NCBI RefSeq assembly: GCF_024362485.1
Contig: NZ_CP101456.1
Location: forward strand, 3,472,001-3,536,000
Reading direction: 5' to 3'
Length of the DNA: 64,000 nucleotides
DNA from: Natronobeatus ordinarius
GTDB taxonomy: Archaea; Halobacteriota; Halobacteria; Halobacteriales; Natrialbaceae
Position numbers and translations under genes: made by a program. Shown piece by piece: positions 20,194-42,710 of this stretch (position 1 is the first letter of the stretch; each line of letters begins with the position of its first letter). The notes under the pieces were generated by a model. The model was given only the letters and a program-made list of their open reading frames with translations. It had not been told where the DNA came from and made no database searches.

Positions 20194-20290
20194 CCTATCA
20201 AGAAGCCCGAAATGGTGTAACGTGAGGATGTTATTCGCGGATACATGCTGTCGATCCGGCTATATCAATGATCTCGTATGTAATGAAAGG

Positions 20291-20297
20291 CTATAAG
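20291..20297 (+). promoter_or_regulatory. TATA box of the BREX operon
   Basis: CTATAAG lies 25-31 nt before the ATG at 20322. It implies that the BREX transcript is leaderless and that the first in-frame ATG codons upstream (20268 and 20283) are not used. Confidence 0.5.
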
Positions 20298-20321
20298 TCT
20301 GCCCTCTATCTCAACAGGTAT

Positions 20322-21167: not shown

Positions 21168-24100
21168 TGCGACGGACCGAAACGACGGTGGATTCGGCGT
21201 GGTTCCCCACACTCGACACTCACTTCGAAGAATCGGTTCGGATCGACCGCAAGGACCTCGAGCGTGACGAACACGATCATCGCACGGAGGTCGTCGAGTC
21301 GTACCACCTGACGAGTGACTCGCGCCGATTTCTCGAGGATTTCATCGATCGCCTTCTCGGCGAGGCAGACGACATGCGGACGGGGTCGAACTACTGGCTC
21401 TACGGCTACTATGGTAGTGGGAAGAGCCACTTGCTGGCCGTCCTCGATGCGTTGATGGACTCAGTTTGGCTGGAGGGTGAATACGAGACTGTCTGGGACG
21501 CGCTCGTTCCCGACGCTGCCGTCGTCGACGAAGACGACTACGACTTCGAAACCCTGCGCGAGAAGTGGGGGGCGGTCCACGAAACGTACCACGTTATCCC
21601 CGTCTCGATCAATCTCCTGAAATACCAGGGGCAGAAACAGCGCAGTTTCAGCGAGATTGTTCTCAAACACGCCCACCAGAATTCGGAGCTCACCGGCGTC
21701 GAAGACGACCTCTCGAGCGGCCTCTCCTCGCAGATCGACGTCGCGTACTTCGAAGACTGGTATCGGACGACCGAGAAGTGGCCCGAACGCCACGAACGTG
21801 CGGAAACTACGCTCGAGGACATCACGGAGGGTTCGACAGCGTACGGTTGGCAGACAGAGACGCTTTGGACCGACATCCAGCAGTACGAGGCGTTGGGCGG
21901 CGTCGTCCTTCCGGAGCTGTTCGAGGACGTGACCGGGACTGAAGACGGCTACAGCGACCTACAGCCGTCAGACATCGATCCCGAAGCGGTCGTCCGCCGA
22001 CTCGAGGAGCTCCGCGCCGCTCGCGAGGCCGATCTCGGAAAACCGGTGAAACTCGTCCTGTTGCTCGACGAAGTGAGTCTCTTCATCGGGACGGACTTCG
22101 AGCGCCTCACCGAACTGCAGACGCTCGCGGAGAACGTAGACGAGATCGCCGACGGCGACGTTCAGCTGGTCGCGACCGCCCAGGCGAAGATCGAGGATGT
22201 CCAGCCGAAGTTCGCGGCACACGGCGCCGATTTCAGCATCGTCAAAGACCGGTTCCCGCATCGGTACCAGCTTCCGAGCAAACACGTCGGTGACATTGCC
22301 AAGCGCCGGCTCTTACAGAAGACCGAAGACGGCGAGCGTGACGTACGCAAACTTCTCGAGGACGCTGACGTCAAGCCGGCCGAGTCGCTCGTGTTCAACG
22401 AAATCAAACAGAACACGAAACCGCCACTCGACGCCATCGACCACGAGGAACTCGTCGAGTTCTACCCGTTTCTCCCCTATCATCCGCCGTTGTTCCTCGA
22501 AATTCTGTTCAATCTCCGCCGGGACGCACCTGATCCCGCGAAGTCGATCTTCTCGGGGACCGCACGGGCGATTCTCGCGCTCATGCATGGTCTCCTCGAG
22601 AGGTGGGAGCGAGAGGCCGAAGAAGACGAGATCATCTCACTGATCGACTTCTACAAACTGATCAAACCCGAACTTCGAGATATTCTCGAGACGGAGATGC
22701 AGGTCATCGAAGGGACAGGAACGGGAGCGGAGAAAATCCCGGGAATCGCAGACGAAGTCGGTGACGAAGAGAGTCCGCTCACCGAATTCGACCTCGAGGT
22801 TGCGAAGGCGATCCTGCTGTTACGACACGTCCACGACATCGTCCCACTCAACGAGGGGAACATTGCGGTCGCGGTGATGTCCGATCTCAACGGACGTTCC
22901 TGGATCAGTACGACCAACCGCGTGGAAGAGTCGCTCGATCGCCTCAAAAAGTACGTCCGACCGGTTCGGGAGGAAGGAAAAGCCCGGTACCGGTTCGCGA
23001 CCATAGAGGAGCGCCAAATCTACGAGGATGCGGAAGAACACGAGACGAATCCCGACTGGGATCGCATCCTGCAGACGCTCGACGAACACCTCTGGGACCG
23101 CATCGTTCAGGACCTCTCGTTGCCCGAATCCGCACCGTACGGGGATTCCGGTGACGAGTATCCGGTCACGTACTCTTTCAGCGTCGACGAAATGGGCTTC
23201 GAGACGGCACTCGAGCGGGAAAGTGGGCTGGAGATCGACGTCGTCGTCCAGGGCCTCCGGCCGGGAGCGACGACGGGAGTTACCGAAGAGGAGACGCTGT
23301 TCTGGTCGATCGACACTGACGGCCTCGAGGAACTGCGAAAACGCCTCATCGAGTGGTGGGCGCTGCGTGACGCCATCGCGATGCGTGATGCCCCACCGGC
23401 CGTCGAACACGATCTCGAGGAGCGGGCGACGGCAGTCCGTCGTAAGATCGTCAGTGCGATGCAGAAAGGCTCGTTCGCGGTGGAAGCCCGGACGGAGATC
23501 CGTGGGCTGTCGAAGGCAGTCCGGATCGCGATCGACGCCGCCTATCCCGACGACTTCCACCCGGTGATGCTCCAGGTCGACGACGACCGGTTGCTGGAGT
23601 TACGCGAACTGTCCGCCGAGGACCCGCTTCCGGAGTGGGCGCGGACGATTCAGGTCCCCTCGTCGAACGGGATGGGTGACCGAGGGAAGAAGACCATCCA
23701 GAACAACGTGCTGGTGCTCGCGGGGCGACAGTTGAAAGACCGAGAGGATGGCCTCCACTTGAACACCGTCCTCGACGGCATCGTCGAAGAAAAGCCGTTC
23801 TACGACGAGACGCGGCCTGCCCTCCGGGCGATTCTCTGGGGCTTCTGTCGCGCCGGCCGGTTCTTGCCGGTCGACGAGGACGGGAACGCCGTAGAGAACG
23901 ACGCTATCCTCGATCCGGATCGAGCGTCCACAACGCGGCTGAAACTCCTCACCGTTCCAAACATCGGGAAGACACTCGAGGAGTACGAGTTCAAACAGAC
24001 GACAGAGACGGTACAGGAGGGGCTGATCAACATCCGAGAGGCGAACCGCCGTCTCCGGTCGAAGCTCACCGGCCTCCGGGAAGACGTGCAGTTGATGGCA

Positions 24101-24952
24101 GACGCGGACGTCCACGCCGACGCCGTCACGGCGCTTCTCTCGTCGTTCGCCGACGAACTGGCCGACCGAATCGATGGTACGGAAGTGCGGCTGTCGGCCA
24201 TTAACGCACAGGACGACCAGCTGGTCGACGCGATCGAACGAACGGACGAGACGGAACAGTGGTTCGAGGAAGTCGTGGACGTCTGGGAGCGCCGGCGGTC
24301 GTCGATCTATCAGCTCGATGCCGTCCTCACTGTCGGTGCAGAACGGTTCGACTGGGTATCCAGTGAGACGCTGTCGTCACTCGACGACCGTCGTGACGCG
24401 GTTGCAGCCTTTGACGGCCCCTGGTGGACGACTGACGGCTGGAGTACGTTCTCCTCGGAACTCGTCCCAGACCTCACGGCCGACCTCGAGGCATGCTGGG
24501 AGACGTTCGTCGACGATCAAGGGCTCCGCTCACTCGTCAGTGACGTCGACGAGCATCCCTGGGTCATCCCCTCGACCGAATTACCGGCGGGCGTTCACAG
24601 GACGTTCGAACGGGAACTCATTGCACCGTTACGAGCACTGGGTGGCTGGTACGAGACACTCGATCGAGCGATCGGGGCGCTCTCGGCGGGTGATCCCGAT
24701 GCCCTCGTCGACGCCGCCGATAGCGTGTCCGAGCTGGAACCGCTCGCGGCGCACGTCGTTATCGACATCGACGACCTCGAGGCACGGTTCGACCGGCTGT
24801 CTGCGATCGTTGGCGATCGGACGTTCGCGGACGTCGACCACGTCGGCCTCGTGCCGGACGATCGGCAAGCACTCGATCGGCGGCTCCAGCGGCTGGTCGA
24901 AACGCAGGACCTCGATCTCGTCGAGATCGACGAAGGGGTGATCGTCCGATGA
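21167..24952 (+). CDS. brxC: BrxC/PglY-type ATPase, first copy
   Basis: A GTG at 21164 is directly followed by the ATG used here (TGATG with the previous stop). The roughly 1260-residue protein begins with a P-loop ATPase: Walker A LYGYYGSGKSHLL at about residue 80 and Walker B KLVLLLDEVSLFIG near 295. A long helical region with a winged-helix-like part follows. This is the DUF499-type architecture of BrxC/PglY, the large ATPase essential to BREX. It differs clearly from the second copy 4 kb downstream (Walker A HATFGSGKTHLL), so the two are not a recent duplication. Its stop overlaps brxB by 4 nt. Confidence 0.9.
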   Translation: MRRTETTVDSAWFPTLDTHFEESVRIDRKDLERDEHDHRTEVVESYHLTSDSRRFLEDFIDRLLGEADDMRTGSNYWLYGYYGSGKSHLLAVLDALMDSVWLEGEYETVWDALVPDAAVVDEDDYDFETLREKWGAVHETYHVIPVSINLLKYQGQKQRSFSEIVLKHAHQNSELTGVEDDLSSGLSSQIDVAYFEDWYRTTEKWPERHERAETTLEDITEGSTAYGWQTETLWTDIQQYEALGGVVLPELFEDVTGTEDGYSDLQPSDIDPEAVVRRLEELRAAREADLGKPVKLVLLLDEVSLFIGTDFERLTELQTLAENVDEIADGDVQLVATAQAKIEDVQPKFAAHGADFSIVKDRFPHRYQLPSKHVGDIAKRRLLQKTEDGERDVRKLLEDADVKPAESLVFNEIKQNTKPPLDAIDHEELVEFYPFLPYHPPLFLEILFNLRRDAPDPAKSIFSGTARAILALMHGLLERWEREAEEDEIISLIDFYKLIKPELRDILETEMQVIEGTGTGAEKIPGIADEVGDEESPLTEFDLEVAKAILLLRHVHDIVPLNEGNIAVAVMSDLNGRSWISTTNRVEESLDRLKKYVRPVREEGKARYRFATIEERQIYEDAEEHETNPDWDRILQTLDEHLWDRIVQDLSLPESAPYGDSGDEYPVTYSFSVDEMGFETALERESGLEIDVVVQGLRPGATTGVTEEETLFWSIDTDGLEELRKRLIEWWALRDAIAMRDAPPAVEHDLEERATAVRRKIVSAMQKGSFAVEARTEIRGLSKAVRIAIDAAYPDDFHPVMLQVDDDRLLELRELSAEDPLPEWARTIQVPSSNGMGDRGKKTIQNNVLVLAGRQLKDREDGLHLNTVLDGIVEEKPFYDETRPALRAILWGFCRAGRFLPVDEDGNAVENDAILDPDRASTTRLKLLTVPNIGKTLEEYEFKQTTETVQEGLINIREANRRLRSKLTGLREDVQLMADADVHADAVTALLSSFADELADRIDGTEVRLSAINAQDDQLVDAIERTDETEQWFEEVVDVWERRRSSIYQLDAVLTVGAERFDWVSSETLSSLDDRRDAVAAFDGPWWTTDGWSTFSSELVPDLTADLEACWETFVDDQGLRSLVSDVDEHPWVIPSTELPAGVHRTFERELIAPLRALGGWYETLDRAIGALSAGDPDALVDAADSVSELEPLAAHVVIDIDDLEARFDRLSAIVGDRTFADVDHVGLVPDDRQALDRRLQRLVETQDLDLVEIDEGVIVR

Positions 24953-25548
24953 CCGAAGACAGCGACTCGCCGTACCGAGCGTTCAAAGAGAAGCTGTGTA
25001 CGTTCGCCGACGGCCAGCACGGAATCCGAAACCCGTTCGTCATCGCCGCCGTCGATCCCGCCCTCGAACACGAGGTGGTCGCGCGGCTGGAACGGTGGGC
25101 ACGGGGGGAGGGAGAGGAACCGCCGTCGATCCCGGACGACGTGACCGTCCAACCCATTTGGCTCGACGAACTGTTCCCACGAACGGACGTGTTCAAGCTC
25201 CTGCTGGATCTCGGCGACGAGACGGAACCAGCGAGTATCGAAGGGACGATGCAGGATCGACTCGCCGATGAACTCGTCCAGGTGATGGTCAGCGACGTGA
25301 TCGACAGGGAGGCCCTTGAGTCGCCCAACCACGTCGTATTGCTCCTCAACCTCGGGAGTCTGTACCCGTTCACGCGGGCGTCCGAACTGCTCGACGAACT
25401 CGATCGGCGTAACGTCAAGTCGACGATCGGCATTCCGTTCCCAGGTGAGGTCGTCGGCGGGAAGTTGAACTTCTTCGGTGGCGACTCGCGCCACTACTAT
25501 CCGGCCCACCAGATCGACGGCAAGATTCAGGAGGTGCATCTCCCATGA
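24949..25548 (+). CDS. brxB: BrxB (DUF1788)
   Basis: The 199-residue protein has the DUF1788 pattern: an RNPFVIAAVDPALEHEV strand-helix start, the central VVLLLNLGSLYPFTRASELLDEL strand and helix, and the closing STIGIPFPGEV. It is the small BrxB component found next to BrxC in several BREX types; its biochemical role is not known. It is enclosed by two BrxC genes and overlaps both by 4 nt, an arrangement typical of the haloarchaeal type 5 locus. Confidence 0.9.
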   Translation: MTEDSDSPYRAFKEKLCTFADGQHGIRNPFVIAAVDPALEHEVVARLERWARGEGEEPPSIPDDVTVQPIWLDELFPRTDVFKLLLDLGDETEPASIEGTMQDRLADELVQVMVSDVIDREALESPNHVVLLLNLGSLYPFTRASELLDELDRRNVKSTIGIPFPGEVVGGKLNFFGGDSRHYYPAHQIDGKIQEVHLP

Positions 25549-28500
25549 TGATCGGCGCACTCTTTCACAGCGATCCGACGCGACAGCTCGAGGAGGTACA
25601 GAAGGTAAACGCTCGCGACCGGGCCGAAACCGACGTCCGGGAGTTCCATGAGACCGAGAGCGCGAAACGTGCGCTCACCGAACTCGGTGACGTCGTTCGG
25701 ACCTATCCCGACGAGGAGCCGCGATTTCTCTACTTCCACGCGACGTTCGGCTCGGGGAAAACACACCTCCTGAAACTCATCGGGCTCGTTGTCGATGGCG
25801 AGTCGGAACTTGCTCCCCTCGGGGAGCGACTCGCCACGAAGTGGCCGGGATTCGATTCGCTGCGCCATGCGGTCGAGGACTCCCACGTCGATCGGCTCAA
25901 GCCAGTGTTCCTCAACCTGCTCGATCGTGACGCGTCGAAGGAACCGCCGCTGCCGTTCCTGCTCTACGAGGCGATCGCCCGCGAACTCGGCTATCCCACG
26001 GACCCGAACTGGCTGCTCGAGTGGGCCTGGACGGTCGATTCGGAATACGACGGAGTCTGGGACGCGCTCACCGAGTTCGAACACGACGGGCGGACCTTTG
26101 CGGACGTCCTCGAGGAGCGGGCGTACCTCCGGACGTGGCTCTACGAGGCACTGCCCGCACTGGCGGAAACGACCGGGACCGATCTCGAGACGGCAGCGGG
26201 GGTCAAAGCGTCCATTGAGGCGGCCGAAGCGGAAGTCGACCCCGAGTCGTTCGGTCCCGACGACTTAGTGGAGCGCGTCGAGACGGCGACGGCGGCGTTG
26301 AACGAGGACGGGACGCGAACCGAACTCCTGCTGGGGCTGGACGAGGTCGCGCTGTTCGTCGGCGACAGTCGCCACCGGTATCGGGAGTTCGAAGAGACCA
26401 TGGAGGCCCTCCAGCACGGCCCAAACCCGGTAGTCGTCACGACCGGTCAGTACTCCCTCCCCGAGACCAGGAAGAACCTCATCGGCGAATCGGACGCGGA
26501 TCACTGGACGACCAGGCAGGTGCTCCTCGAGGGGACCGACACGGAGATCATCGTCAGGAAACGCTGGCTGCAGAAGCGTACCGAGGGATCGGAGTTTACG
26601 GAGTCGCTGCTTTCCTCAGTGTCCGACCTCTCGCTCGAGACGTACGAGGAGGTGACGAGTGCAGACCCCGACCCCGTCGAGTCCTACCCGTTCCGCGAGT
26701 ACGACCTGACGTTGCTCCGGCGGGTGATGCAGGAGCTGATCACCCAGGGTCGACAGACCGACCACGAGTACATCCAGGGACGGGCGTTGCTCGTCCTCGT
26801 CCGGTCGCTGTTCACCAAGTTCGACTGGGCACGGACCGAGGCCGGCGCGCTCGTCACGTGGGACCAGCTGTTCGACTTGCTCGTCGAGGAGACGACGTAC
26901 GTCCCGCTGTGGGTCCAGGAGATGATCGACAACACGCTGGTACCGACGTTCGGCGACGAGGAGGCCCGGGAAGTGCGCGTCTCGAAGGCGCTCTACCTGC
27001 TGAACCAGGCGCCCGCAGTTCCGGCGACGCCCGAGAACCTCGGCCGGCTGCTGGTCGACGACGTCGAGGCGTCGGTCGAGGAGGTCATCGCGGAGACCCA
27101 GGACGCACTCGAGACGCTCGTCGACAAGCGGAAGGTGCTCACCGAGACCAACGATCACGGCGACGAGGAGTATACGCTCGTCTCCGAAGACCAGGAGAGT
27201 GTCCTCAGTCGCGCCCAGACGAAAGCCGAGGAGATCTCGCCCCACCAGCTGTCGGCGTGGCTCGAGACGCGCTTCCGGGAGACTGACGACTTCTTCCGCA
27301 GCGACGGGACCCGCCACGAGATCGACGTCGGCGACGAACGCCTCGTCCCGCTGCGATACGAGTACTCCGTCCTCGATCCCGTCAACCGAGCGCCCACGAG
27401 CGAGTACGACGCGGTCTGCGTGCGCGTGCTGGCCGACGAGGAAGACGTCCTCACCGAGGGAGTCGAGACCTGGCAATCGGTCAACGAGGGACGAACCGGC
27501 GGCGAGCACGTCCTGATCGCCATCGAGGTTCCGGGGGCGATGCTCGACCGGATCCGCAACGTCATGGGAATGCGCCAGGCGCTCGACGAGGAGGTGGAAT
27601 CGTACGACGAACTCGAGCGCGAACTCCGGACCGACGAGCGCCGCCTCGAGGCCTCGGTGAGCGGGGTCCTCGAGGGAGCGGACGTCTACACCGTCGCGGG
27701 TCGCGAAGGGTCACGGCCGGAGATCCTAGAGCGGGTGATCGCGGACGAGGTTCGGTCGGTCTTCGGCTCCTCGCGGAAGGTGCTCTCGCGGTCGCTCGTC
27801 GAGGTCGAAGACGCGAAGGCGATGGCCGCGTTCTTCCGCGGGAGTGGCGAGTGGCCGCTGTCGGCAACCGACGCCGAGTTGCTCGGCGTCGACACGGAGA
27901 CAGCCGAACTCACAGACGACGGGTGGTGTCGGTCATTCGTCGAGGAGCACGAACCGCAGCCGATCGACGTCGAGACGCTACTTCGACGGACGGAGACCGC
28001 CAAGGGGGCCTATCGCGGGACGCCCCAGGAGTCCATCGCGGCGTTGCTCATCACCCTCGCAACGTCGAACGAGAACGTCGGGCTCAAGCGTGACGTCGAG
28101 TACGTGACCGACCCCGCGGCGATCGGTCGAGCGGTTCGGACGAAAGGCGGGCTGACGTCGCTGCAGGTGCGCTTCGACGTCGAGATCGTCGACCGAAAGC
28201 AGGTCCGGACGTTCATCGAGACGCTCCTCGAGCGCGAGCCCGCCGGCGAAGGAGTCGACGAGTGGCTCGCCGACCTCGAGGCGTGGGTCGACGAGAACCG
28301 CGCGTCGATCAAACGGACGCTGAAGGAGGCCCGCAAGGAGTTCGACGCGTCTCTCGAGACGCTTTCTGCGACGCTCGAGCCGGCGTTCGAGGGCGAGGGC
28401 CTCACCACGTCGGACCTGGGCGGCGACCGGCGCCTCGAGACGCTCATCGAGGAGGCCGAGACGTTCGCCGCCGCCCGCGAGCTGTTCGAGGGCGGGTCGG

Positions 28501-29366
28501 AATCGCTGTGGGCGCGATTCGAGGAGATGCGCTCGACGATGGCGTCGCGGTATCCCGACGCGACGATCACCGAGCGGATGCATGCGACTGCGTCGGCGGG
28601 GACTGTCCCGACCGTGACGACGGTGGAGTCGCGGCTCGAGGACGCCCGGGCCCACCGCGTCGACGCCGTCTCGGCGCAGTACCGGCGGCTCACCGGCGCG
28701 TCGCCGTCGGCGTCGACGGTCGGGGGCGTGCTCGAGGAACTCGGCGAGTGGCTGTGTGCGAACGAGTCGGTGGTTCGTGGCCTCTTCGAGGACGCAACTG
28801 CGACGTTCGAGGGCGTCGATCTCGGGGCGCTCGAGGCGCTCTGTGCGTCGGCGTTCGAGGGCGACGCGGTCGCGGAGGCAGACCTGGTCACGTCGGATGC
28901 GGTCGGACAGGCGAAGACCTTCGAGCGCGTCCGGGAGCTGTTCGACGACGTCGACGGTGAAAGCCCGTGGGCGAGACTCGAGGCCGCCGCGGAGACACTC
29001 GCGGCGGAGTATCCGGAATCGCTCACGCGGGAGTCCGTCGAGGGGACGCTCGCCGCCTCCCGACCGCCGACGCGACGGCGCGTCGAGGGGTTGCTCGAGG
29101 AAGCGAAGGACCCCATCCTCGGCGGTGGGAGCACGCTGGATCGCCTGACGACCGTCGGGCGTGACCTCGAGGGGAAGCTTCCGAACGCCGATCTCACCCG
29201 GGAGGTGAGCCAGGCACTCAAGTCCGAGGAGCTCACCGAAGATCGCGCGGCGGAACTGCTCTCTGCGGCGGAGACGGTCCTCGATCGACTGGGCGCCCTC
29301 GAGGAGCAATTGGACAATCTTGAAGACGGTAGCGTGGTTCTGATCGAGACATCTAACCGGGACTGA
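25545..29366 (+). CDS. brxC: BrxC/PglY-type ATPase, second copy
   Basis: The 1273-residue protein begins MMIGALFHSDPTRQLEEVQ and has Walker A FHATFGSGKTHLL at residues 64-76 and Walker B LLLGLDEVALFVG near 260. The C-terminal third is very regular acidic helix with repeated LEEAEKFAAARELFEGG-like motifs (about 960-1000 and 1120-1150), suggesting duplicated helical modules. Two BrxC/PglY genes in one operon are the hallmark of type 5 BREX. Such pairs may form a hetero-oligomer; that is inference. pglX follows after 5 nt. Confidence 0.9.
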   Translation: MMIGALFHSDPTRQLEEVQKVNARDRAETDVREFHETESAKRALTELGDVVRTYPDEEPRFLYFHATFGSGKTHLLKLIGLVVDGESELAPLGERLATKWPGFDSLRHAVEDSHVDRLKPVFLNLLDRDASKEPPLPFLLYEAIARELGYPTDPNWLLEWAWTVDSEYDGVWDALTEFEHDGRTFADVLEERAYLRTWLYEALPALAETTGTDLETAAGVKASIEAAEAEVDPESFGPDDLVERVETATAALNEDGTRTELLLGLDEVALFVGDSRHRYREFEETMEALQHGPNPVVVTTGQYSLPETRKNLIGESDADHWTTRQVLLEGTDTEIIVRKRWLQKRTEGSEFTESLLSSVSDLSLETYEEVTSADPDPVESYPFREYDLTLLRRVMQELITQGRQTDHEYIQGRALLVLVRSLFTKFDWARTEAGALVTWDQLFDLLVEETTYVPLWVQEMIDNTLVPTFGDEEAREVRVSKALYLLNQAPAVPATPENLGRLLVDDVEASVEEVIAETQDALETLVDKRKVLTETNDHGDEEYTLVSEDQESVLSRAQTKAEEISPHQLSAWLETRFRETDDFFRSDGTRHEIDVGDERLVPLRYEYSVLDPVNRAPTSEYDAVCVRVLADEEDVLTEGVETWQSVNEGRTGGEHVLIAIEVPGAMLDRIRNVMGMRQALDEEVESYDELERELRTDERRLEASVSGVLEGADVYTVAGREGSRPEILERVIADEVRSVFGSSRKVLSRSLVEVEDAKAMAAFFRGSGEWPLSATDAELLGVDTETAELTDDGWCRSFVEEHEPQPIDVETLLRRTETAKGAYRGTPQESIAALLITLATSNENVGLKRDVEYVTDPAAIGRAVRTKGGLTSLQVRFDVEIVDRKQVRTFIETLLEREPAGEGVDEWLADLEAWVDENRASIKRTLKEARKEFDASLETLSATLEPAFEGEGLTTSDLGGDRRLETLIEEAETFAAARELFEGGSESLWARFEEMRSTMASRYPDATITERMHATASAGTVPTVTTVESRLEDARAHRVDAVSAQYRRLTGASPSASTVGGVLEELGEWLCANESVVRGLFEDATATFEGVDLGALEALCASAFEGDAVAEADLVTSDAVGQAKTFERVRELFDDVDGESPWARLEAAAETLAAEYPESLTRESVEGTLAASRPPTRRRVEGLLEEAKDPILGGGSTLDRLTTVGRDLEGKLPNADLTREVSQALKSEELTEDRAAELLSAAETVLDRLGALEEQLDNLEDGSVVLIETSNRD

Positions 29367-29371
29367 CATTC

Positions 29372-32300
29372 ATGGCAAAAGGAACTCTCCAGGAACGGAA
29401 GGCACAGCTGGACAAAGCAGAACGCGAGCACTTAGAGGACGTCGTCGCGGAGATGCGCGGGCGTATCGAGGACCACGTCCGCTTTCGGCTCACCCAGGAG
29501 GGGCTCGAGATCGAGCCCGAGGACGCGGACGATCTCGAGGAGGAGACTCGCCAGCTCGTCGAGGCGATCGAACTCGAGGCCGTCGACGGCTACGACTGGG
29601 ATGAAGCCGTCGAACAGTACGTCACCGGCGTCGGCTACACGGTGGTCAACCGGCTGGCCGCGCTGCGGTGTATGGAAGTGCGGGGATTCCTCGAGGAGGA
29701 GGTCACGGTCTTCAAGGAAAACGGCCTGACCCCGGCGGCGGAGACGCTCGTCCACGAGGAGTTCTTACTCGAGGACGAGGCGATCCTCGAGGCCTACCAG
29801 GGGACCTGTGACGATCTCGCCGAGGAGATCGAGATCCTGTTCGACCGATCGTCGGCCTACAGCCTGCTGGATCCCGACGACGACACCTACGAGGCCCTTT
29901 GCACCTTGCTCGACGAGGTCCCCGACGAGGTCTGGCGTGCCGACGACGTGCTCGGGTGGGTCTACGAGTACTACAACCGCCCGGTCGTCGAGGCGCTGGA
30001 CGCCAAGAACACCCTCGAGCCCGAAGACGTCGGCCCCGCCAACCAGTTCTACACGCCCCACTGGGTCGTCCGGATGCTCACCGACAACTCGCTGGGGAAG
30101 CTCTACCTCGAGGCCACCGGCCAGGAATCGACAGTTCCCGACCCCGAGGAACTCTCGATCGAGGAGCGCAAGGAACGGCTCGTCACGCCAGAAGACTCTC
30201 CGGACGTCCCGAATCTTTGCACCTACCTGATCCCCGACGAGGACGACCACGAGGCACCCGCGTTCGACGACCCCTCCGAGATTCGCGTCATCGATCCCGC
30301 CTGTGGGAGCGGGCACTTCCTGCTGTACGCCTTCGACGTCCTCGAGCGTATCTGGTGGGCCGAACGTCCCGACCTCGACCGGAAGGAGGTCCCGGCGAAG
30401 ATCCTCGAGCACAACCTCTACGGCGTCGATATCGACCTGCGTTCGTGTCAACTCGCGGCGTTCAACCTCTACCTCAAAGCCCGCACCCGCGCCGAAGAGG
30501 AGGGTGACGGCGGCTTCGAGTTGCCAAACGTCGGAATCGTCTGTGCCGACGCCCGCGTTGCCGAGGTCGAGGAGGCCGTCGAGGTGCTCAACGAGATCAC
30601 CGGCGAGGGAACCGACGTCCGTGCGGCCCTCGAGGAGATCATCGAGGAGTTCCAGACTACCGAAGCTCTCGGCAGCTTGCTCGACGTTCAGGGGACGCTC
30701 TCGGCGGAGTTCCTCGAGGACCAGACGGACCTCTTTGACTATACTGACGATGGCCCCAAGACGCTGAACGCCTTCCTGAAGGCACTGCGCGAGGCCGTCG
30801 ACGAGCGAACGTCGGATTCCTTCGGCGAGCAGAATCTTCGAAGTTTCCTCAATCTCCTAGTGGTGTTGACCCAGGAGTACGATGTGGCGTTGATGAACCC
30901 GCCATATGGTTCAGGAGGTCGGATGCCTACTACTGTACGGAAATATATCGAACATCATTACGAGTATACAACAGAATATTATATCAATTTCTTTGAGGTT
31001 TGTGACAATTTGGTAAAGGCGTATGGACGAATTGGGATGCTCGTTCCCCGATCGTTCATGTTCCTCAAGTCATTTCAGGACTTCCGGGAAGATTTTATTG
31101 GAGGTGCGGGATCATTCGATTTCTTGGCTGAATTCGGCATAGACATTCTTGATAATGCAACTGTTAGGACTGCGGGTACAGTCGTACGTTCAGGCATAGA
31201 GAGTGATCAGGAAGGTACATTTATCCGTCTCGACGATATTAAAAAATCGCAAAAAGAACGCTCGTTTTTACATTCGTCCTTCGTCGATTCAAGTGAAAAC
31301 GGAATCCAGCGAAGATATCAGCGTGAACTGTCTGATTTCGAAATGGTTCCCGGAACCCCGATCACTTACTGGGTTCCGACCGACTTGCGATCGGTTTATA
31401 AGTCTAAAACTGTCCTTGATGCGGATAACGCTAAAGTCGAAGGGAATGACACATATGGTGTCATTAAGCAAGGGCTCGCGACGGCAGATGATTCGAGGTT
31501 CGTTCGGAACTTTTGGGAGAATTCAGATTTGAATTCGTGGCCGCCATTCGCCAAAGGCGGAGAGGACGCGTGGATTTTACCCAGGGTGAAAAATACAGTC
31601 CTCTGGAAGAACGATGGGGGAGAAATAAAGCGGTATGGAGGATCTCGACCTCAGAACACTCAATTTTATTTTGAGGAGTCACTGACATATACAGTCGCAA
31701 AAGAAAGTGGACGCCGATTCGGTTATCTCCACGAGGATTCTATATTCGGTCATAAAGGTTCCGTTCTCATTCCGAACCGATGTACGTGGAATGGTCTCTC
31801 GTACACAAATAGCCATTTATTTACATATTTAATGCTCGCACAGACCACCGAGCGAATGTGGGAAGTTGGACAGGTTTCCAAACTTCCCTGGCGTGAAGAA
31901 CTCGAAGATATTGAAGAATTAGAGGCGCTTTCCCGTGAGGCCGTGGGTTATCTGATCTCAAAACGGCAGTACGAATTTGTTTCACCCCACTACACAGGTC
32001 CTGTGCTTCTATCTGTCCTTGGCATTGAGGGATCACTTCCCTATTCTGAACATCCTCATCGTGAACTACGCGAAGAACTCGATGTCATTTCCCCTATGGA
32101 TATCGCTTCACCCGATACTTCGCTACACGACATAGGTATCATGGCAGCGAAACACCTCGAGCGAATCGAAGCGAACCTGCAAGAGTGCGCCGACGCAATC
32201 GACGAGGCAGTGTTCGACTGCTTTGACATCTCCGAGGAGCAACGCGAAACCATTCTTCAAGAGATTGCTCTTAGAACGAACAAAGATCCACGCGAGCGCG

Positions 32301-33577
32301 AGGAGTACGACCCCGATTCCATCACGGAACCCGGCGAGAACTTCCCCGAGATGGTCAAAGACCTGCTGTTGCACCTCGCCCTCCGGATCGTCCACGAGGA
32401 CGACGACGGAATCGTCGCACTGTCGGACGTCGACCGCGAGTCCGACCTCCTCGAGCGCCTCGAGGACGAGTTCGAGCGCATCTTCGGCGAGTACGCCGCC
32501 GATCGGCTGGCCGAGGTCGACCAGGTGCTCGGCAGTCGGACGGCCGACGAGGAAGCCTACCCCAACCTCCGGGCGTGGCTCGAGGACGACCTCTTCGAGT
32601 ACCACGTCTCGAAGTTCGACCGAGTGCCGATTCTGTGGCGGCTCACCACCGAACGCCTCGTCTCCGATCCCGACGGCGAGGGCTTCGCCTGCCTGCTCGA
32701 CTACCACCAGCTCGACGCCAGCGTCTTCGATAAGCTGCAGAACCGCTACCTCGAGCCCCGGAAGGCGCTGCTCCGGGAACGGCGTAGCGCGGCCAACCGC
32801 CGCCGGAGCGACGAATCGCTCTCGGCTTCCGAGAAGGCCGCCGCGGCCGAGGAGTACAGCCGGTGTGAGAGCGCCCTCGAGCAGATCGCCGCCCTCGAGG
32901 ATCGGATCAGCGACCTCGCACAGCCCGATCCCCGGGAGTGGCCCGAGGAGAACCAGGCGGTTGCTCGCGAGGCTGCCGAAAGGGTCGCCGAGTTCCGGGA
33001 AGAAACCGCACGGCGACTCGAGGCACTCGAGGAGCTGGCCGACCTCGATGACATCGATATGGAGGACCTGTTCAGCCCCTCGTTCTACGACACAGTGCAA
33101 GGGAACAAAGACGAGTGGATCGACGCACTCGAGGACCTCGAGGCGGCCTTCGAAGCGTATGCCGAAGACGGCTCCGAACCTGTCGAGGCCCACCTCTACG
33201 ATCTCTTCGAGTACTACCACGACCTCGTCGGCTCCGCCCACTACGCGAGCAACGGCATTCTGTTCACCACCTACTACTACGACAAGTTCGAGGAGCCCGA
33301 GCAGGCCCAACTCGGCGACGGCGGCGCCACCCGCAAGCAACGGCTGCTCTCGGAACTGGCGAGCGACCTCGAGGCGTACCGGGATCTCGCGGACGAGATC
33401 GCGGACGCGTGCGACGCCATCTCGAAGGACATCTCTTCGGACTGGGCGGATCGGGCCCTCTCCGAGATCACGACCAGAGGCTACGAGCCTAACCACAAAC
33501 ACGGCGTCGCGATCAACGTCACGCCGCTCGCCGAGGCGGAGATCGTCCCCGAAATCGTCGACGAGAAGGTGATCTGA
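29372..33577 (+). CDS. pglX: PglX adenine-specific DNA methyltransferase of BREX
   Basis: PglX methylates adenine at a non-palindromic site to mark self DNA and sets the specificity of the system. The 1401-residue protein has the N6-adenine methyltransferase motifs: SAM loop VIDPACGSGHFLLYAF at about residues 304-319, GVDIDLRSCQLAAFNLYL, and catalytic NPPYG at about 507. The target-recognition part (about 510-925) is encoded by visibly AT-richer DNA (about 30890-32150) with different codon choice from the GC-rich flanks, pointing to exchange of this cassette. The C-terminal third is coiled and acidic. It overlaps the next gene by TGATG. Length is full; no stops. Confidence 0.95.
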   Translation: MAKGTLQERKAQLDKAEREHLEDVVAEMRGRIEDHVRFRLTQEGLEIEPEDADDLEEETRQLVEAIELEAVDGYDWDEAVEQYVTGVGYTVVNRLAALRCMEVRGFLEEEVTVFKENGLTPAAETLVHEEFLLEDEAILEAYQGTCDDLAEEIEILFDRSSAYSLLDPDDDTYEALCTLLDEVPDEVWRADDVLGWVYEYYNRPVVEALDAKNTLEPEDVGPANQFYTPHWVVRMLTDNSLGKLYLEATGQESTVPDPEELSIEERKERLVTPEDSPDVPNLCTYLIPDEDDHEAPAFDDPSEIRVIDPACGSGHFLLYAFDVLERIWWAERPDLDRKEVPAKILEHNLYGVDIDLRSCQLAAFNLYLKARTRAEEEGDGGFELPNVGIVCADARVAEVEEAVEVLNEITGEGTDVRAALEEIIEEFQTTEALGSLLDVQGTLSAEFLEDQTDLFDYTDDGPKTLNAFLKALREAVDERTSDSFGEQNLRSFLNLLVVLTQEYDVALMNPPYGSGGRMPTTVRKYIEHHYEYTTEYYINFFEVCDNLVKAYGRIGMLVPRSFMFLKSFQDFREDFIGGAGSFDFLAEFGIDILDNATVRTAGTVVRSGIESDQEGTFIRLDDIKKSQKERSFLHSSFVDSSENGIQRRYQRELSDFEMVPGTPITYWVPTDLRSVYKSKTVLDADNAKVEGNDTYGVIKQGLATADDSRFVRNFWENSDLNSWPPFAKGGEDAWILPRVKNTVLWKNDGGEIKRYGGSRPQNTQFYFEESLTYTVAKESGRRFGYLHEDSIFGHKGSVLIPNRCTWNGLSYTNSHLFTYLMLAQTTERMWEVGQVSKLPWREELEDIEELEALSREAVGYLISKRQYEFVSPHYTGPVLLSVLGIEGSLPYSEHPHRELREELDVISPMDIASPDTSLHDIGIMAAKHLERIEANLQECADAIDEAVFDCFDISEEQRETILQEIALRTNKDPREREEYDPDSITEPGENFPEMVKDLLLHLALRIVHEDDDGIVALSDVDRESDLLERLEDEFERIFGEYAADRLAEVDQVLGSRTADEEAYPNLRAWLEDDLFEYHVSKFDRVPILWRLTTERLVSDPDGEGFACLLDYHQLDASVFDKLQNRYLEPRKALLRERRSAANRRRSDESLSASEKAAAAEEYSRCESALEQIAALEDRISDLAQPDPREWPEENQAVAREAAERVAEFREETARRLEALEELADLDDIDMEDLFSPSFYDTVQGNKDEWIDALEDLEAAFEAYAEDGSEPVEAHLYDLFEYYHDLVGSAHYASNGILFTTYYYDKFEEPEQAQLGDGGATRKQRLLSELASDLEAYRDLADEIADACDAISKDISSDWADRALSEITTRGYEPNHKHGVAINVTPLAEAEIVPEIVDEKVI
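30890..32150 (+). other. AT-rich mosaic segment of pglX (specificity cassette)
   Basis: From the NPPY codons onward the DNA becomes AT-rich, with many NNA/NNT codons, and returns to the GC-rich haloarchaeal style near 32150 (a gradual tail runs to about 32290). The limits coincide with the end of the catalytic part and the start of the helical C-terminus. This is what replacement of the target-recognition domain by homologous recombination in the flanks would leave. Confidence 0.75.
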
Positions 33578-34116
33578 TGAAGGCCCACGTCTTCGCGGAA
33601 GGATCCAACACGACGGCCGAGGACCGTGACCTGCCTCTCGTGGAGTACTACGAGGGACTCTTCGGGACGGTCGCAGGCCTCCAAGAGGAACTGGCCGACC
33701 ACACCGACACGACGCTCCACGTCCTCTCCGAGGAGTTCGGCGCCGCCCGCGGTCACGAACGCGTCGCCGACCTCGAGACTCGAGGAACCCCCGTCGGCTT
33801 CGAGGAGATGACGGCCGCAGCGAGGGAGGAACTCCGAGGCGCTGCCACGGACGCTGACGTGATGGTCGTCCTGCTGTCGACGGACGTCTTCGAGATGACG
33901 GTTGGCGAGGCGTGGCCGGATCTCGTAGAAGCTGCGAAGCCGGGCTCGATCTGGTGTCTCAGCGCCGCACGGAGCGCACTCGAGGAACTCGACCTCGAGG
34001 CCCTCGAGACGGACGGCCGGACCGTCCTCACCTACGAGCGTCGCGGCGTCGCCCGAATCGGAACCGAAACGCGCGAACAATTGCTCGAGACCGTGACCCA
34101 AACCGCCACCCAGTGA
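33577..34116 (+). CDS. Unassigned 179-residue protein between PglX and PglZ
   Basis: I do not recognise a named family. The protein is a small alpha/beta fold: a first strand KAHVFAEGS, a segment LVEYYEGLFGTVAGLQEELADH with TTLHVLSEEFGAARG, then DVMVVLLSTDVFEMTV and GSIWCLSAARSALEEL. The order (YY-x-LF helix, then a strand ending in LSEEFG) vaguely recalls DUF6884/YaaA-like proteins, but this is weak. It overlaps pglX by 1 nt and is followed after 2 nt by pglZ, so it is made in step with the methyltransferase. That makes it a likely regular member of this BREX variant rather than a passenger. Confidence 0.72.
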   Translation: MKAHVFAEGSNTTAEDRDLPLVEYYEGLFGTVAGLQEELADHTDTTLHVLSEEFGAARGHERVADLETRGTPVGFEEMTAAAREELRGAATDADVMVVLLSTDVFEMTVGEAWPDLVEAAKPGSIWCLSAARSALEELDLEALETDGRTVLTYERRGVARIGTETREQLLETVTQTATQ

Positions 34117-34118
34117 TC

Positions 34119-36311
34119 ATGCCAGCGACCAAAACCCTTCCACAGTGTGCCCACGACGCCCTCGAGACCGCCATCGCCGACGCCGTCGACGACGAGCCGG
34201 TCGTCCTCTGGTGGGACGAGGGCGGCTACCTCGAGGACCTCGTGCGAAACGTGAGCGCCACCCTCGGCTGTACCTTCCGGAAAGCCGAGCGAACCCTCCT
34301 CGAGCTTCGGGCCGAACCCCCGCGGGGGAAGACGGTCTGGTACGTCCCCGAGACCCCGGACGAGGACGTCGACTGGTTCAAGGACGTCGAGAACACCGGT
34401 AGCGTCCTCAAGCTCCACATCGGCAAGCTCGCCGCACGGTGTTTCGAACGTGATCGCCTCCAGGCCGCCTCGCTCCGGGCTGCCTTCGAGGACGCCACGG
34501 TGGACGACGACCTCGAGGAGGACGACCGCGACAAGGTCGCGAAGACCCTCTACCGGGAACTCGACGGCCAGGGCGGCCTCCCCTCGCTGCAGGCGCTCCA
34601 GACCAAGATCGTCCTCGATGGCCACGATGATCCCGTGCGGTTCGTCCTCGAGTACGGCGTCGAGGGCTTCTCCGACGACGGCGCCGAGGACGAGGGGCAC
34701 CAGGAAAAGGTCGTGCAGATCCGCGACCTCCTCGTCGACCAGGGCGTCGCCGCCGTAGAGGGCGTCACCGACGCCGAGACGATCGTCGAGCGAACCCGTC
34801 GCTGGGCGGTCGCCGAGTGGCTCGTCGACGAAGGCCTCGAGGCCTCTTTGCTCCCCGAGGAGTATCTCCCCGGAAGCGGCTCGAGTATCGGCATCTCCCG
34901 GCCTGAACTTCGCTCGACGCTGAGCAAGACCGAACGACCCGACGAACTGGCGGCGATCTACCTCGACCCCGAGCGCCGGTTCTGGCACGACGTGATCCGA
35001 ACCTACGACGAGCCCTGGACGCTCGTCGAGTGCCCCGTCGACGGCACCCTCGAGACTCGTCTCTGGGACGAGTGGATTCATCACTTCCAGGAGAGCGACT
35101 ACGAGACCTGCGCCACCCACGCGCGAGCGCGCCATCGCGCCCTCGAGCGCACCTTCGGCGACGTCCCGTGGACGAACGTGTGGAAGCAGGCGATCGACGT
35201 CGCCGACCTCGCCGCCGAACTCGAGTCCTGGGCGGAACGCGACGACGGCGACGTCGTCGACCTCTACGGCGACGTCGAGAACGGTACCTGGCAGATCGAC
35301 AACGCGGTGTTCAACCTCGTCATCTCCGGGGAACCCGAGGCCGACCTCCCCGAGGAGCACCCCGCGACGGCGACGCTCGCAGACCTGCGCACCTCGCTCG
35401 TCGAGGACAGCTACCTCGAGTACCTCTCGGAGCTGGGCGATCTCGTCGTCGAACAGATCGACTCCGGCGCGCCGTTCGTCGGCAAGCGCCACGCCCACCA
35501 GTTCTTCGACGAGGAGTCGGAGTACCTCCAGAGCGGCCAGAGCGTCGCGCTGTTTATCATCGACGCCCTGCGGTTCGACCTCGCACACGAGCTCGCCGAG
35601 TCCATCCGCCGCGAGCTGCCGGAGCTCGAGGTCGATGAAACCCCGTGGGTCGGGACGCTCCCCTCGGACACCGAGTTCGGCAAGGCGGCGCTCACCCCCG
35701 GGAGCAAGTTCAGCTTCAAAGTCGAACTCCGAGACGGCGATCTCGTTCCCGTTCGAAACGGCCGTCGAATCACTAACTACCAACGAAGAGAGCTACTGAC
35801 GAACGACGGCTGGAGCTACATCACCCAGGGAGGCGAGGAGACGGGTTGGAGTAGCACTCGCGTCGTCTACTACTGGAACGACATCGACGAAGCCGGCGAG
35901 AACGAACTGACCGACTTCGAGGACGTGTTTCGCGACCGTCTCGAGACGATTACACGGATTATCTGCGAGAAGATCGATCAGGGCGAGTGGGATCGGGCGT
36001 ACATCCTTACGGACCACGGGTTTGTGACCCATCCAACAGAACCAACTATTGATTCGCTGAGACCACCTCACGGCGCTGAGAAGGTTACACGCCGATGGAT
36101 CGCCGGTTCAGACGTCGATTACGACAAGGCAGGCGTTCTGCTGGACGAAAACACCCACCTCGGCTACCTCGATTCGGATACGAAGATCGGTATTCTATCA
36201 GATCCCCTTCAACGATTCAGCAAACGGGGGCCTTCCAATAACCGATTCTTCCACGGTGGGATCCTCCCACAGGAGTTCGTACTGAACTTTATTACGATCA
36301 CCCAAGAATAG
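34119..36311 (+). CDS. pglZ: PglZ, alkaline-phosphatase-superfamily BREX protein
   Basis: The frame is open further upstream, but the ATG at 34119 starts the protein 2 nt after the preceding stop; 730 residues. The PglZ core begins near residue 475 with SVALFIIDALRFDLAHEL (metal-site Asp), continues with TLPSDTEFGKAALTPG and ends with YILTDHGFVTHP (Asp-His metal ligands). The N-terminal half is acidic helical. PglZ is the constant component of all BREX types; it works with PglX. The last 350 nt are less GC-rich than the rest, again hinting at exchange at the locus. The operon-like run ends here; the helicase lies 3.5 kb away. Confidence 0.93.
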   Translation: MPATKTLPQCAHDALETAIADAVDDEPVVLWWDEGGYLEDLVRNVSATLGCTFRKAERTLLELRAEPPRGKTVWYVPETPDEDVDWFKDVENTGSVLKLHIGKLAARCFERDRLQAASLRAAFEDATVDDDLEEDDRDKVAKTLYRELDGQGGLPSLQALQTKIVLDGHDDPVRFVLEYGVEGFSDDGAEDEGHQEKVVQIRDLLVDQGVAAVEGVTDAETIVERTRRWAVAEWLVDEGLEASLLPEEYLPGSGSSIGISRPELRSTLSKTERPDELAAIYLDPERRFWHDVIRTYDEPWTLVECPVDGTLETRLWDEWIHHFQESDYETCATHARARHRALERTFGDVPWTNVWKQAIDVADLAAELESWAERDDGDVVDLYGDVENGTWQIDNAVFNLVISGEPEADLPEEHPATATLADLRTSLVEDSYLEYLSELGDLVVEQIDSGAPFVGKRHAHQFFDEESEYLQSGQSVALFIIDALRFDLAHELAESIRRELPELEVDETPWVGTLPSDTEFGKAALTPGSKFSFKVELRDGDLVPVRNGRRITNYQRRELLTNDGWSYITQGGEETGWSSTRVVYYWNDIDEAGENELTDFEDVFRDRLETITRIICEKIDQGEWDRAYILTDHGFVTHPTEPTIDSLRPPHGAEKVTRRWIAGSDVDYDKAGVLLDENTHLGYLDSDTKIGILSDPLQRFSKRGPSNNRFFHGGILPQEFVLNFITITQE

Positions 36312-38227: not shown

Positions 38228-38249
38228 CGATCCACTCGGTGAGATTCAG

Positions 38250-39797: not shown

Positions 39798-42710
39798 ATG
39801 GATGCTACATACGGTCCCGGCGACACAATTTTTCTCAATGGTGAGCCGGCCGAGGTCATTAAAACGTATACTGTCGGCGATCTCGAGTACCTGCGTGCGT
39901 ACGTCGAGAATATCGGCGTGAAAACAGTCTGTCTCGACGACGTCGAAATCGAACCTCAGGAGGATTCCCTCGAGACACTCTCTCCGAACACAGCGGGTGA
40001 CCTCCATCCCAAGCACGACACCGTCTCCGCTGAGTGGTTCGATCTCCGTTCGCAGGCGCTCCAGCTACAAATCGCCCACGAGCAGGGACAACTCCTGAGC
40101 ATCTCGAACTCGCTGGTTCGCCTCGAGCCCTACCAACTCGAGTGTGTCAACTGGGTAATGCAGAAACTCCGCCAGCGGGCACTCATCGCCGACGACGTCG
40201 GTCTCGGGAAGACCATCGAGGCGGGATTGATCCTGAAGGAACTCACAGCGCGTAATCGCGCCGACCGCGTTCTCTTCGTCGTTCCCGCTCACCTCCAGAA
40301 GAAGTGGATCCGTGACATGGACCGCTTTTTTGACATCGAGCTCACGCCGGCCGATCGGAAGTGGGTCGAGGGTGAGCGTCGACGTCTCGGCGAGGAAGCC
40401 AACATCTGGAATCAGGACCACCAGCGACTGGTGACAAGCATGGCCTTCCTCCGTCAGGACGAGTTCCAGCCCGAACTCGAGGACGCCTTTTGGGACGTGG
40501 TTGTCGCCGACGAAGCCCACAAAGCCGCCAAGCGTGGCGAGTCAGCGAACAAAGCGGCGAAGATGGTTGAACGGGTTGCAGGGAACTCAGATGCGCTTCT
40601 GTTGCTCAGTGCCACACCACACGACGGGAAAGGCAATGCGTTCCGGTCGCTTGTCGAGTACATCGACCCGTTCCTCGTCGCCGAGGATCGGGAGTTGACT
40701 CGAGACACCGTCGACCGGGTGATGATCCGCCGTGGAAAGCAAACCATCTACGACGACGACGGCGAGCGCATCTTCCCGGATCGAGACGTCAGGACGGTCC
40801 CGGTCGAGATGAGCCACGAAGAACGCGCGTTCTACCGCGCTGTCACTGACTACGTCAAATACGTCTACAACCGCTCTGAGCGACTCAACGAACCCGCGGT
40901 CGGGTTCGCGATGGCGCTCATGCAAAAGCGCCTCGTGAGCAGCATCGGTGCCATCAGGGCAACACTCAGTCGACGACTGCGTAATCTCGTCGCCGAGCAA
41001 TCGACGGGAACGGCGCTCTCAGAGGAGGCGAACGCATACTTAGAGGGGGAGGATCTCGACGAGGACGATAAACAGCGAGTCGAAGCTGAACTCGCGGGAT
41101 TGACCGTCACCGAAAGCGATGCTGAGCTCGAAGAGGAAATCGAGACGCTTCGGGACCTCATCACCCTCGCCGAACGCATCCCCGTCGACTCGAAGGCACA
41201 GAAGGTCCGCCGATTCATCCAACAGCTGCTCGAGGAACAACCGAACGAGAAGGTCCTGCTGTTCACCGAGTATCGGGACACACTCGAGTATCTCCTTGAT
41301 CTCGTGAAAGACGAGCCGTGGGCTGACGAAATCCTCGTCGTCCATGGGGACGTGGACAAGGAAGATCGCACCCAGATCGAAGACGAGTTCAACTATGGAC
41401 AGTCACGGCTGCTTTTCGCGACCGACGCGGCGAGTGAAGGGATCGACCTCCAGCACAGCTGCCACATCATGGTGAACTACGAGCTGCCGTGGAATCCGAA
41501 CAGGCTCGAGCAACGCATCGGCCGGATCCACCGCTATGGCCAGGACAAGGAGGTGAAGGTGTGGAACTTCTCGTTCGAGGAAACGAGGGAGGGGGAGATT
41601 TTCGAGATGCTCCAGAACAAGGTCGAAAACATCCGTGGGAAACTCGGGAACACGGCCGACGTGTTGGGGATGCTCGATGAGATCGACCTCGACTCGCTCA
41701 TCATGCGCTCGATCCGAAACGACGAACCCGCGAGCGCAACCAAAGCAGAACTCAAGGCATTGATCGATGAACGCCAGCGGACGCTTGAGGAGTGGTACGA
41801 CCGAAGCCTCATCGACACGAGCACGTTCGACGAGGAGAGTCGGCGAAAGATCCAACAAGTCGTCGACGACTCCGAAGGCGTCTACGGAACCGAGGCGGAC
41901 ATTCGGGAGTTCGTCGAGCGCGGTGTGCGGACCCTTGGGGGCGAGATCGAAAGCGCAGGAGCCAACATGTACCGTGCTGAGTTGCCCGAATTGATCGGAA
42001 CACGGGTTTCACAACCCGAGTACGGTCCGTTCACCTTCAGTCGCGAGTTCGCGATGGACCACGAAGGGATAGAATACGTCTCACCGGATTCGGCGCTGGT
42101 CCAAGGGCTCATGGAACAGATCCTCGATGAGAATCGGGGAGAGGTGGGGCTCAAACTCCTCCCGTTCGTCGAGACGCCCGGGATTACGTACAATTACCGG
42201 GTTCGGTTCGAGGATGGGACGGGCGAAGTGATTCGAGAGGAGTTACGCCCCGTATTCGTGGACATGGACTATCACGACCCACAGCAACGACTGGGTCGTC
42301 GCGTACTCGAGGCAGAAAGCGTCCAGGGCTCGCCGGACGAACGGACAGTCCAGACGCTTCTAGAGGCGGAGGGTGATCTCCGTAACGCTGCAGACGAATA
42401 CGTCAGTACACACGTTGTGTCACTCAAGAATGGGCTGCAGAGCCGTCGAGAGGCAGAGACAGAGCAAGAGTTAGACGACCTTCGTGAGTATGCCGAGGCC
42501 GAACGGATGCGGATTGAACAGTTCATCGACGAGTACGAACAACGAGCCGACGCCGGCTCTGACATGTCGATTGCGATCCGAAGACAGCGACAACGCCTCT
42601 CGAAGTTAGAGGAACGACTCGAGACCCGGCGCGAAGAGCTGCGACGGAAATCACAGGTCATCTCACTCGCGCCTGAAATCGAGGCACGTTGTCTGGTGCT
42701 CCCTGTTTGA
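39798..42710 (+). CDS. brxHII: SNF2-family helicase, BrxHII-like
   Basis: The 970-residue superfamily 2 helicase has Walker A IADDVGLGKTIEAGLIL at about residues 128-144, DEAH box VVVADEAHKAAK at about 235, motif III LLLSATPHDGKGN and the C-terminal helicase part LLFATDAASEGIDLQ and NRLEQRIGRIHRYGQ near 536-580. After it comes a coiled-coil tail. This is the layout shared by BrxHII of BREX and DrmD of DISARM. With no DISARM genes around and a full BREX set 3.5 kb upstream, BrxHII is the sensible name. It is on the same strand as the BREX operon but separated by unrelated genes. Confidence 0.85.
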   Translation: MDATYGPGDTIFLNGEPAEVIKTYTVGDLEYLRAYVENIGVKTVCLDDVEIEPQEDSLETLSPNTAGDLHPKHDTVSAEWFDLRSQALQLQIAHEQGQLLSISNSLVRLEPYQLECVNWVMQKLRQRALIADDVGLGKTIEAGLILKELTARNRADRVLFVVPAHLQKKWIRDMDRFFDIELTPADRKWVEGERRRLGEEANIWNQDHQRLVTSMAFLRQDEFQPELEDAFWDVVVADEAHKAAKRGESANKAAKMVERVAGNSDALLLLSATPHDGKGNAFRSLVEYIDPFLVAEDRELTRDTVDRVMIRRGKQTIYDDDGERIFPDRDVRTVPVEMSHEERAFYRAVTDYVKYVYNRSERLNEPAVGFAMALMQKRLVSSIGAIRATLSRRLRNLVAEQSTGTALSEEANAYLEGEDLDEDDKQRVEAELAGLTVTESDAELEEEIETLRDLITLAERIPVDSKAQKVRRFIQQLLEEQPNEKVLLFTEYRDTLEYLLDLVKDEPWADEILVVHGDVDKEDRTQIEDEFNYGQSRLLFATDAASEGIDLQHSCHIMVNYELPWNPNRLEQRIGRIHRYGQDKEVKVWNFSFEETREGEIFEMLQNKVENIRGKLGNTADVLGMLDEIDLDSLIMRSIRNDEPASATKAELKALIDERQRTLEEWYDRSLIDTSTFDEESRRKIQQVVDDSEGVYGTEADIREFVERGVRTLGGEIESAGANMYRAELPELIGTRVSQPEYGPFTFSREFAMDHEGIEYVSPDSALVQGLMEQILDENRGEVGLKLLPFVETPGITYNYRVRFEDGTGEVIREELRPVFVDMDYHDPQQRLGRRVLEAESVQGSPDERTVQTLLEAEGDLRNAADEYVSTHVVSLKNGLQSRREAETEQELDDLREYAEAERMRIEQFIDEYEQRADAGSDMSIAIRRQRQRLSKLEERLETRREELRRKSQVISLAPEIEARCLVLPV

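Follow-up and report, generated by a model that had tools for sequence, protein, structure and literature searches.

The window, the whole stretch of 64,000 nucleotides that was analysed, is part of a haloarchaeal chromosome (positions 3472001-3536000) in a genome of 4.2 Mb and contains a BREX-5 cluster. BREX systems mark their own DNA; to our knowledge, the way in which they alter this self-mark has been little studied. The genes of the cluster are the following:

20268..21167, + strand: brxA (PADLOC PDLC02456, E 3.5e-124)
21164..24952, + strand: brxC, first copy (PADLOC PDLC02474, 1808 bits)
24949..25548, + strand: brxB (PADLOC PDLC02467)
25545..29366, + strand: brxC, second copy (PADLOC PDLC02473, 1838.8 bits)
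29372..33577, + strand: pglX, intact, 1401 aa (NCBIfam NF033454, BREX_5_MTaseX, and PADLOC PDLC02518 over the full length)
33577..34116, + strand: unnamed gene of 179 aa in the interval between pglX and pglZ, with counterparts in other BREX-5 clusters
34113..36311, + strand: pglZ, start approximate (NCBIfam NF033444, BREX_PglZ_5, 1027.7 bits, cut-off 250)
39798..42710, + strand: brxHII helicase (PADLOC PDLC02504, 1872.6 bits, full length)

By profile matches, the locus holds the gene set of BREX type 5: a BREX-5 PglX and PglZ, brxA, brxB, two copies of brxC, and BrxHII. The last of these is 66 % identical to the helicase of a BREX-5 plasmid locus of Halorarius. PglX scored 2433 bits with NF033454, for which the cut-off is 900, and the BREX-5 model was the only NCBIfam BREX model for which it lay well over the cut-off. 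The scores for Pfam Eco57I and N6_Mtase also exceeded their cut-offs. The motif order of a gamma-class N6-adenine methyltransferase is present, with DPACGSGH (the SAM-binding GxG) near residue 309 and NPPY at residues 509-512. Judged by these family matches, the product of pglX, hereafter the query, is the adenine-specific methyltransferase and specificity protein of BREX-5. Only one pglX match was obtained in this genome. No family was found in Pfam, NCBIfam, or PADLOC for the 179-aa gene (33577-34116), which is possibly an unnamed BREX-5 component; its product is 41 and 56 % identical to those of counterparts in an equivalent position in two other loci (L223 and L225, respectively).

Several other genes were observed around the cluster. 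Divergent to brxA (15187-20176, - strand), a McrB-like AAA protein of 1215 aa is encoded together with an overlapping 449-aa gene without a family match; the two may form a type IV (McrBC-like) restriction pair. Upstream of the island, two neighbouring ORFs (13680-14680, + strand) each carry one half of a transposase, the helix-turn-helix part and the DDE_3 part. A GmrSD-type protein (44495-46363, - strand; PADLOC HEC-05, 576 bits) is encoded downstream of brxHII, and the region with these two genes looks like a defence island. The interval between pglZ and brxHII (36388-39700) is AT-rich (GC 0.45-0.59) and contains small genes, among them one DUF7509 gene and one encoding a helix-turn-helix protein. 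In some relatives, pglZ is followed directly by the helicase gene, without the intervening stretch.

Within pglX, the GC content falls from 0.60-0.67 (about 0.64) to 0.43-0.50 across positions ~30,890 to ~32,250. GC3 amounts to 0.846 in residues 1-508, drops to 0.448 over residues 509-975, and is 0.874 from residue 976 onward, and the likeliest GC3 segment, as obtained by maximum likelihood, covers residues 510-975 (~30899-32296) with a log-likelihood gain of 128.5. At GC4, the flanks reach 0.884 and the core 0.437, the fourth largest contrast among 90 PglX genes. Amino-acid composition was ruled out as an explanation, since the effect sits at fourfold-degenerate sites. The deepest GC3 dip in pglX was -0.41 (465-codon window), while the values were -0.03 for each brxC and -0.08 for pglZ (window of 200 codons or larger). 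In nine long ORFs picked mechanically from the host chromosome, a small control, the dip was at most -0.14 in size. Host codon tables were drawn from 400 kb of sampled regions.

The earlier note had located an abrupt change in composition at the NPPY motif, between flanks of native appearance. Both observations were borne out: the NPPY codons occupy 30896-30907 and the change-point is at residue 510, while both flanks look native. The return to the native composition was also found but lies about 150 bases further than had been noted, so that the tract measures about 1.40 kb instead of 1.26 kb. Nor does the tract lie exactly over the target-recognition part, as had been thought, since it is larger: the second methyltransferase half and the spacer helices are included as well. 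With the domain limits transferred by alignment from solved BrxX structures, pglX can be divided as follows:

29372..30895, + strand: 5' frame, residues 1-508, N-terminal domain and first methyltransferase half (GC3 0.846)
30896..30907, + strand: catalytic NPPY codons, residues 509-512, left joint (identity drop, breakpoints, change-point)
30896..32329, + strand: AT-rich exchangeable cassette, residues 509-~986 (composition, identity correlations, breakpoints)
30896..31327, + strand: second methyltransferase half, residues 509-~652, in the cassette (alignment to E. coli BrxX; limits from PMC11842806)
31328..31900, + strand: target recognition domain (TRD), residues ~653-843 (alignment to the E. 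coli BrxX TRD, 651-837; PMC11842806)
31901..32329, + strand: spacer helices, residues ~844-986, end of the cassette (alignment to E. coli pglX; Salmonella limits, PMC11341690)
32330..33577, + strand: 3' frame, C-terminal region (GC3 about 0.87)

At the right end of the cassette, the compositional step is at 32296 and the family-wide exchange joint at ~32326-32371. The specificity determinants of PglX/BrxX are found in the TRD and in a loop of the methyltransferase domain (PMC11341690, PMC11842806); in Salmonella PglX, the positions targeted for specificity included a loop at 591-600 of the latter domain (PMC11341690). The identities of the second methyltransferase half (residues 509-~652) are uncorrelated with those of the flanks. 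That this half travels with the TRD makes sense, as the last base of the BrxX site is read by the methyltransferase domain (PMC11842806).

Full-length PglX genes were gathered from haloarchaeal genomes and plasmids and 90 distinct ones were retained. The core is lower in GC4 than the flanks in 85 of these (means 0.49 and 0.72, respectively), by more than 0.1 in 61 of the 74 genes with GC-rich flanks. The 16 genes with a flank GC4 of at most 0.6 do not dip further (means 0.45 and 0.38). In the 47 strong-signal genes of an earlier set of 62, the median positions of the GC3 change-points are residues 510 and 993, and a comparable fall in GC3 is present in the centre of haloarchaeal type IIG relatives. 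An AT-rich centre in all relatives had been named in the earlier note as an observation that would refute a replacement in this strain; such a centre is present in nearly all of them (85 of the 90 haloarchaeal genes) and is also seen in E. coli and other bacteria. The AT-rich middle is therefore a general design of PglX rather than an oddity of the query strain, and, as the family has it in common, composition alone is no proof of a recent replacement in that strain.

Exchange of the core is apparent from comparisons across the 90 genes. Pairwise protein identities of the 5' and 3' flanks are highly correlated (r=0.885), whereas those of the 5' flank correlate poorly with residues 509-600 (r 0.193) and 601-970 (r 0.364). 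In 30-residue windows, the correlation with the flank phylogeny falls from 0.69 at residues 476-505 to 0.10 at 506-535; it recovers at 981-1025 and is 0.66 at 996-1025. Cores of only 48-66 % identity were obtained for 42 pairs with flank DNA identities of at least 85 %, the breakpoint medians being residues 513 and 995. Pairs near 90 % flank DNA identity drop to ~50 % across residues ~513-~995, and 64 pairs combine flanks above 85 % with a TRD part below 62 % at the protein level. In exchange pairs, the DNA identity around the left joint stays high up to residue 512, the end of NPPY, and then drops. AU tests on the core data rejected two flank clades, with ten members (p 5e-61) and five members (p 2e-5), and those on the flank data rejected two core clades (p 2e-8 and 3e-40). 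As the clades were picked from the trees, which were quick ones made without a site-mixture model, these p-values do not refer to groups named beforehand. Residues 509-612 correlate weakly with the remaining core, and the cores are thus themselves mosaics, in which several smaller exchanges may have occurred besides swaps of the whole cassette. No boundary repeats or signal of site-specific recombination were present at the joints, where just low-complexity repeats of codons for acidic residues were seen. Homologous recombination in conserved codons would therefore be the simplest process.

The conserved flanks that had been expected among relatives were found, together with unrelated or differently related centres. 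Equal conservation across the centre, which the earlier note had named as the other refuting observation, was not seen, and correlations, trees, and breakpoints show exchange in the family. The proposal that the recognition domain had been replaced by recombination is strongly supported by these comparisons for the PglX family, and such an exchange is likely for the query too, although composition does not prove a new replacement there. The nearest relative of the query by its flanks (80 and 79 % identical) is the gene of Halobellus rarus (L079), in which the TRD region is only 50 % identical. The DNA identity of this pair is 0.765 and drops to 0.513 over residues 607-940, so one or the other of the two genes has changed. 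The nearest cores (L009, L059, L223, and L017) are all located within other frames. The tree positions of the query have weak support. No close donor of its core was found in GTDB genomes, IMG/VR, or phage and plasmid records, the best match being ~70 % identical at the protein level. As its composition contrast is extreme, the cassette is likely to be a fairly recent arrival in the strain.

A similar organization was observed in Bacteria. The flanks of ten E. coli BREX-1 pglX genes are 92-98 % identical at the DNA level, the cores are 40-62 % identical in 44 of the 45 pairs, and the breakpoint medians are 515.5 and 999, with NPPY at 510-513. Nine of the ten have an AT-rich core (GC 0.34-0.38 vs about 0.455). 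The GC3 segment starts at most ~7 residues from NPPY in the genes of Polaromonas, Azotobacter, Novosphingobium, and Nostoc; it is weaker or starts elsewhere in those of Ochrobactrum, Rhodococcus, and Vibrio and in one BREX-1 gene of Haloarcula, and is absent in very AT-rich Tenacibaculum. Judged from this small bacterial sample, the exchange architecture appears to reach across domains.

The origin of the low GC can be approached from cores akin to that of the query. These are ~66-70 % identical to it in the TRD part and range in GC4 from 0.44 to 0.90: 0.44 in the query, 0.58 in Halobacterium salinarum plasmid PHS3 (L223), 0.77 in L220, and 0.90 in L009. GC-native cores were seen in L221 (0.952), L214 (0.905), and L009 (0.897). 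Values can differ widely within one genome, as in G428 (0.771, 0.782, and 0.455), G449 (0.952, 0.905, and 0.550), and G173 (0.654 and 0.374). The GC-native cores, some of which stand beside AT-rich ones in the same genome, indicate that the protein does not need a low GC and that a uniform local host bias is insufficient. The best fit is an origin in AT-rich DNA, the imported cores having resided for different lengths of time. In three Haloarcula genomes, one pglX keeps a stable core (96-99 % identical) and dips only slightly (0.08-0.10); in the adjacent pglX, whose cores change, the dip is large (0.39-0.46). As GC dip and core turnover were not significantly correlated over 55 genes (rho -0.11, p 0.42), this pattern, the only one to agree with the expectation and limited to one lineage, is to be read as suggestive. 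A viral origin of the cassette was ruled out, viral contigs giving 32-33 % over short stretches and phage records 23-27 %.

Taken together, it is highly probable that pglX consists of a slowly changing frame and an exchangeable specificity cassette that is swapped among strains and species and would thereby alter the self motif. The frame would comprise residues 1-508 and ~990 onward and the cassette residues 509-~985 (window positions 30896-~32330). Cassettes would pass from one pglX gene to another, across strains and species, through homologous recombination, with one crossover in the conserved NPPY codons and a second just past the spacer helices. From the published structures and the specificity changes engineered with their guidance (PMC11341690, PMC11842806), such a swap probably changes the target motif and hence the self motif that is methylated, and would leave in place those regions of PglX that cooperate with the other BREX proteins. 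The cassettes would be drawn from a shared AT-rich accessory pool, which we infer to be the cause of their low GC. Most would stay too briefly to adopt the composition of the host, and for this reason the step would be family-wide; a cassette that stays long would become GC-native.

Other explanations have to be weighed against this one. Taken strictly, the earlier note saw in the AT-rich centre a single recent replacement by foreign DNA in the query strain. The GC4 contrast of 0.884 to 0.437, fourth of 90, agrees with that, as does the GC4 of 0.77-0.90 of related cores elsewhere. However, 85 of 90 relatives and bacterial PglX dip at these residues too, so that this strain is not singled out; no donor was found, the best core match being ~70 % identical, and so narrow an account is improbable. 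The shared dip could instead come from a local bias acting in place, for instance AT-biased mutation that is not offset by GC-biased gene conversion where sequences have diverged too far for homologous recombination; the cores then need not derive from AT-rich donors. The near-universal dip, which extends to type IIG relatives and Bacteria, its failure to deepen in the 16 AT-rich genes with a flank GC4 of at most 0.6, and the lack of correlation between dip and core turnover are all in keeping with such a bias. It does not account for GC-native cores or for their coexistence with AT-rich ones in a single genome, and it leaves the incongruent trees and the breakpoints unexplained. We regard it as rather unlikely and at most as an addition to exchange.

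That the recognition domain has simply diverged in place faster than its flanks, neutrally or under diversifying selection and without exchange, is scarcely credible. The TRDs are indeed the most variable part of BrxX (PMC11842806), but residues 509-600 are conserved like the flanks (mean identities 0.665 and 0.68) and nevertheless correlate with them at an r of only 0.19. Cores common to different frames, sharp breakpoints, and the AU tests refute this explanation for the family. A site-specific switch within the genome, of the kind known from phase-variable specificity genes and acting by inversion or through silent cassettes, would account for genomes with two pglX genes that have like flanks and unlike cores. 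In Haloarcula pellucida (L044/L187), for instance, the DNA identity is 88 % in the flanks and 51 % in the cores, with breakpoints at 515 and 995, and phase variation of pglX has been mentioned (PMC11341690). Since the genome of the window has one pglX match and the joints are devoid of repeats other than low-complexity acidic codons, a switch of this kind is very improbable here.

Several other observations were made in the collected genes. Two nearby pglX genes with unlike cores are present in several haloarchaeal genomes (L054, L057, L059, L044, L036, and L042), an arrangement that would allow two self-marks per cell. The gene is broken or split in L012, L063, L065, L066, L069, and L070, with stop codons, frame breaks, or a separated 5' part; broken or split pglX genes are known from other organisms (PMC9716671). 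A haloarchaeal-type BREX-5 pglX is also carried by L083, a contig whose title assigns it to a Nealsonbacteria metagenome bin, probably through a binning error.

That the BrxX TRD is variable was already established (PMC11842806), and pglX had been noted to diverge internally between E. coli HS and Salmonella (PMC9009780). In the open-access papers searched, we found neither the AT-rich step nor a PglX exchange unit with its start in the NPPY codons described. The BREX-1 BrxX/PglX proteins of E. coli and Salmonella have the same domain order as the query, with NPPY at 509-512 in Salmonella (PMC11842806, PMC11341690). Unlike the query system, they belong to bacterial systems with a PglX of ~1200 aa and without a second brxC or brxHII. 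The haloarchaeal type IIG enzymes (Eco57I/MmeI-like), which are ~30 % related in sequence, also share the domain order and the GC3-poorer centre; they are ~1250 aa long and stand outside the BREX-5 set analysed. In the TRD movement of the Helicobacter pylori type I and III systems, specificity likewise changes through exchange of TRD-coding DNA, and recombination at the DNA for conserved methyltransferase motifs has been described for type III (PMC3983042, PMC3077401). Those are restriction-modification systems with other gene layouts, whereas the PglX unit begins inside the catalytic motif and takes along half of the catalytic domain and the spacer. A conserved frame with a variable recognition segment is also typical of segmentally variable genes, of which methyltransferases are the leading example; the survey of such genes reported no general difference in GC between variable and conserved parts (PMC387263), while in PglX the difference is large and consistent.

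The joint inside the catalytic motif defines the part that travels, namely the recognition domain with half of the methyltransferase domain, and leaves the partner-binding frame untouched. The methyltransferase half that moves contacts both the flipped adenine and the site's last base. The joints predict cut points at which working chimeras could be made, and a grouping of PglX proteins by expected target motif from sequence only becomes possible. PglX also offers a clean test case for the question why specificity modules are AT-rich in GC-rich and GC-balanced genomes alike. Somewhat tentatively, it is proposed that PglX/BrxX of Bacteria and Archaea have this exchange architecture in common and that their circulating cassette pools stay AT-rich because cassettes are replaced before they adopt the composition of the host. 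If this is true, the last change of the self-mark by a BREX system could be dated roughly from how large the GC step at the catalytic motif is.
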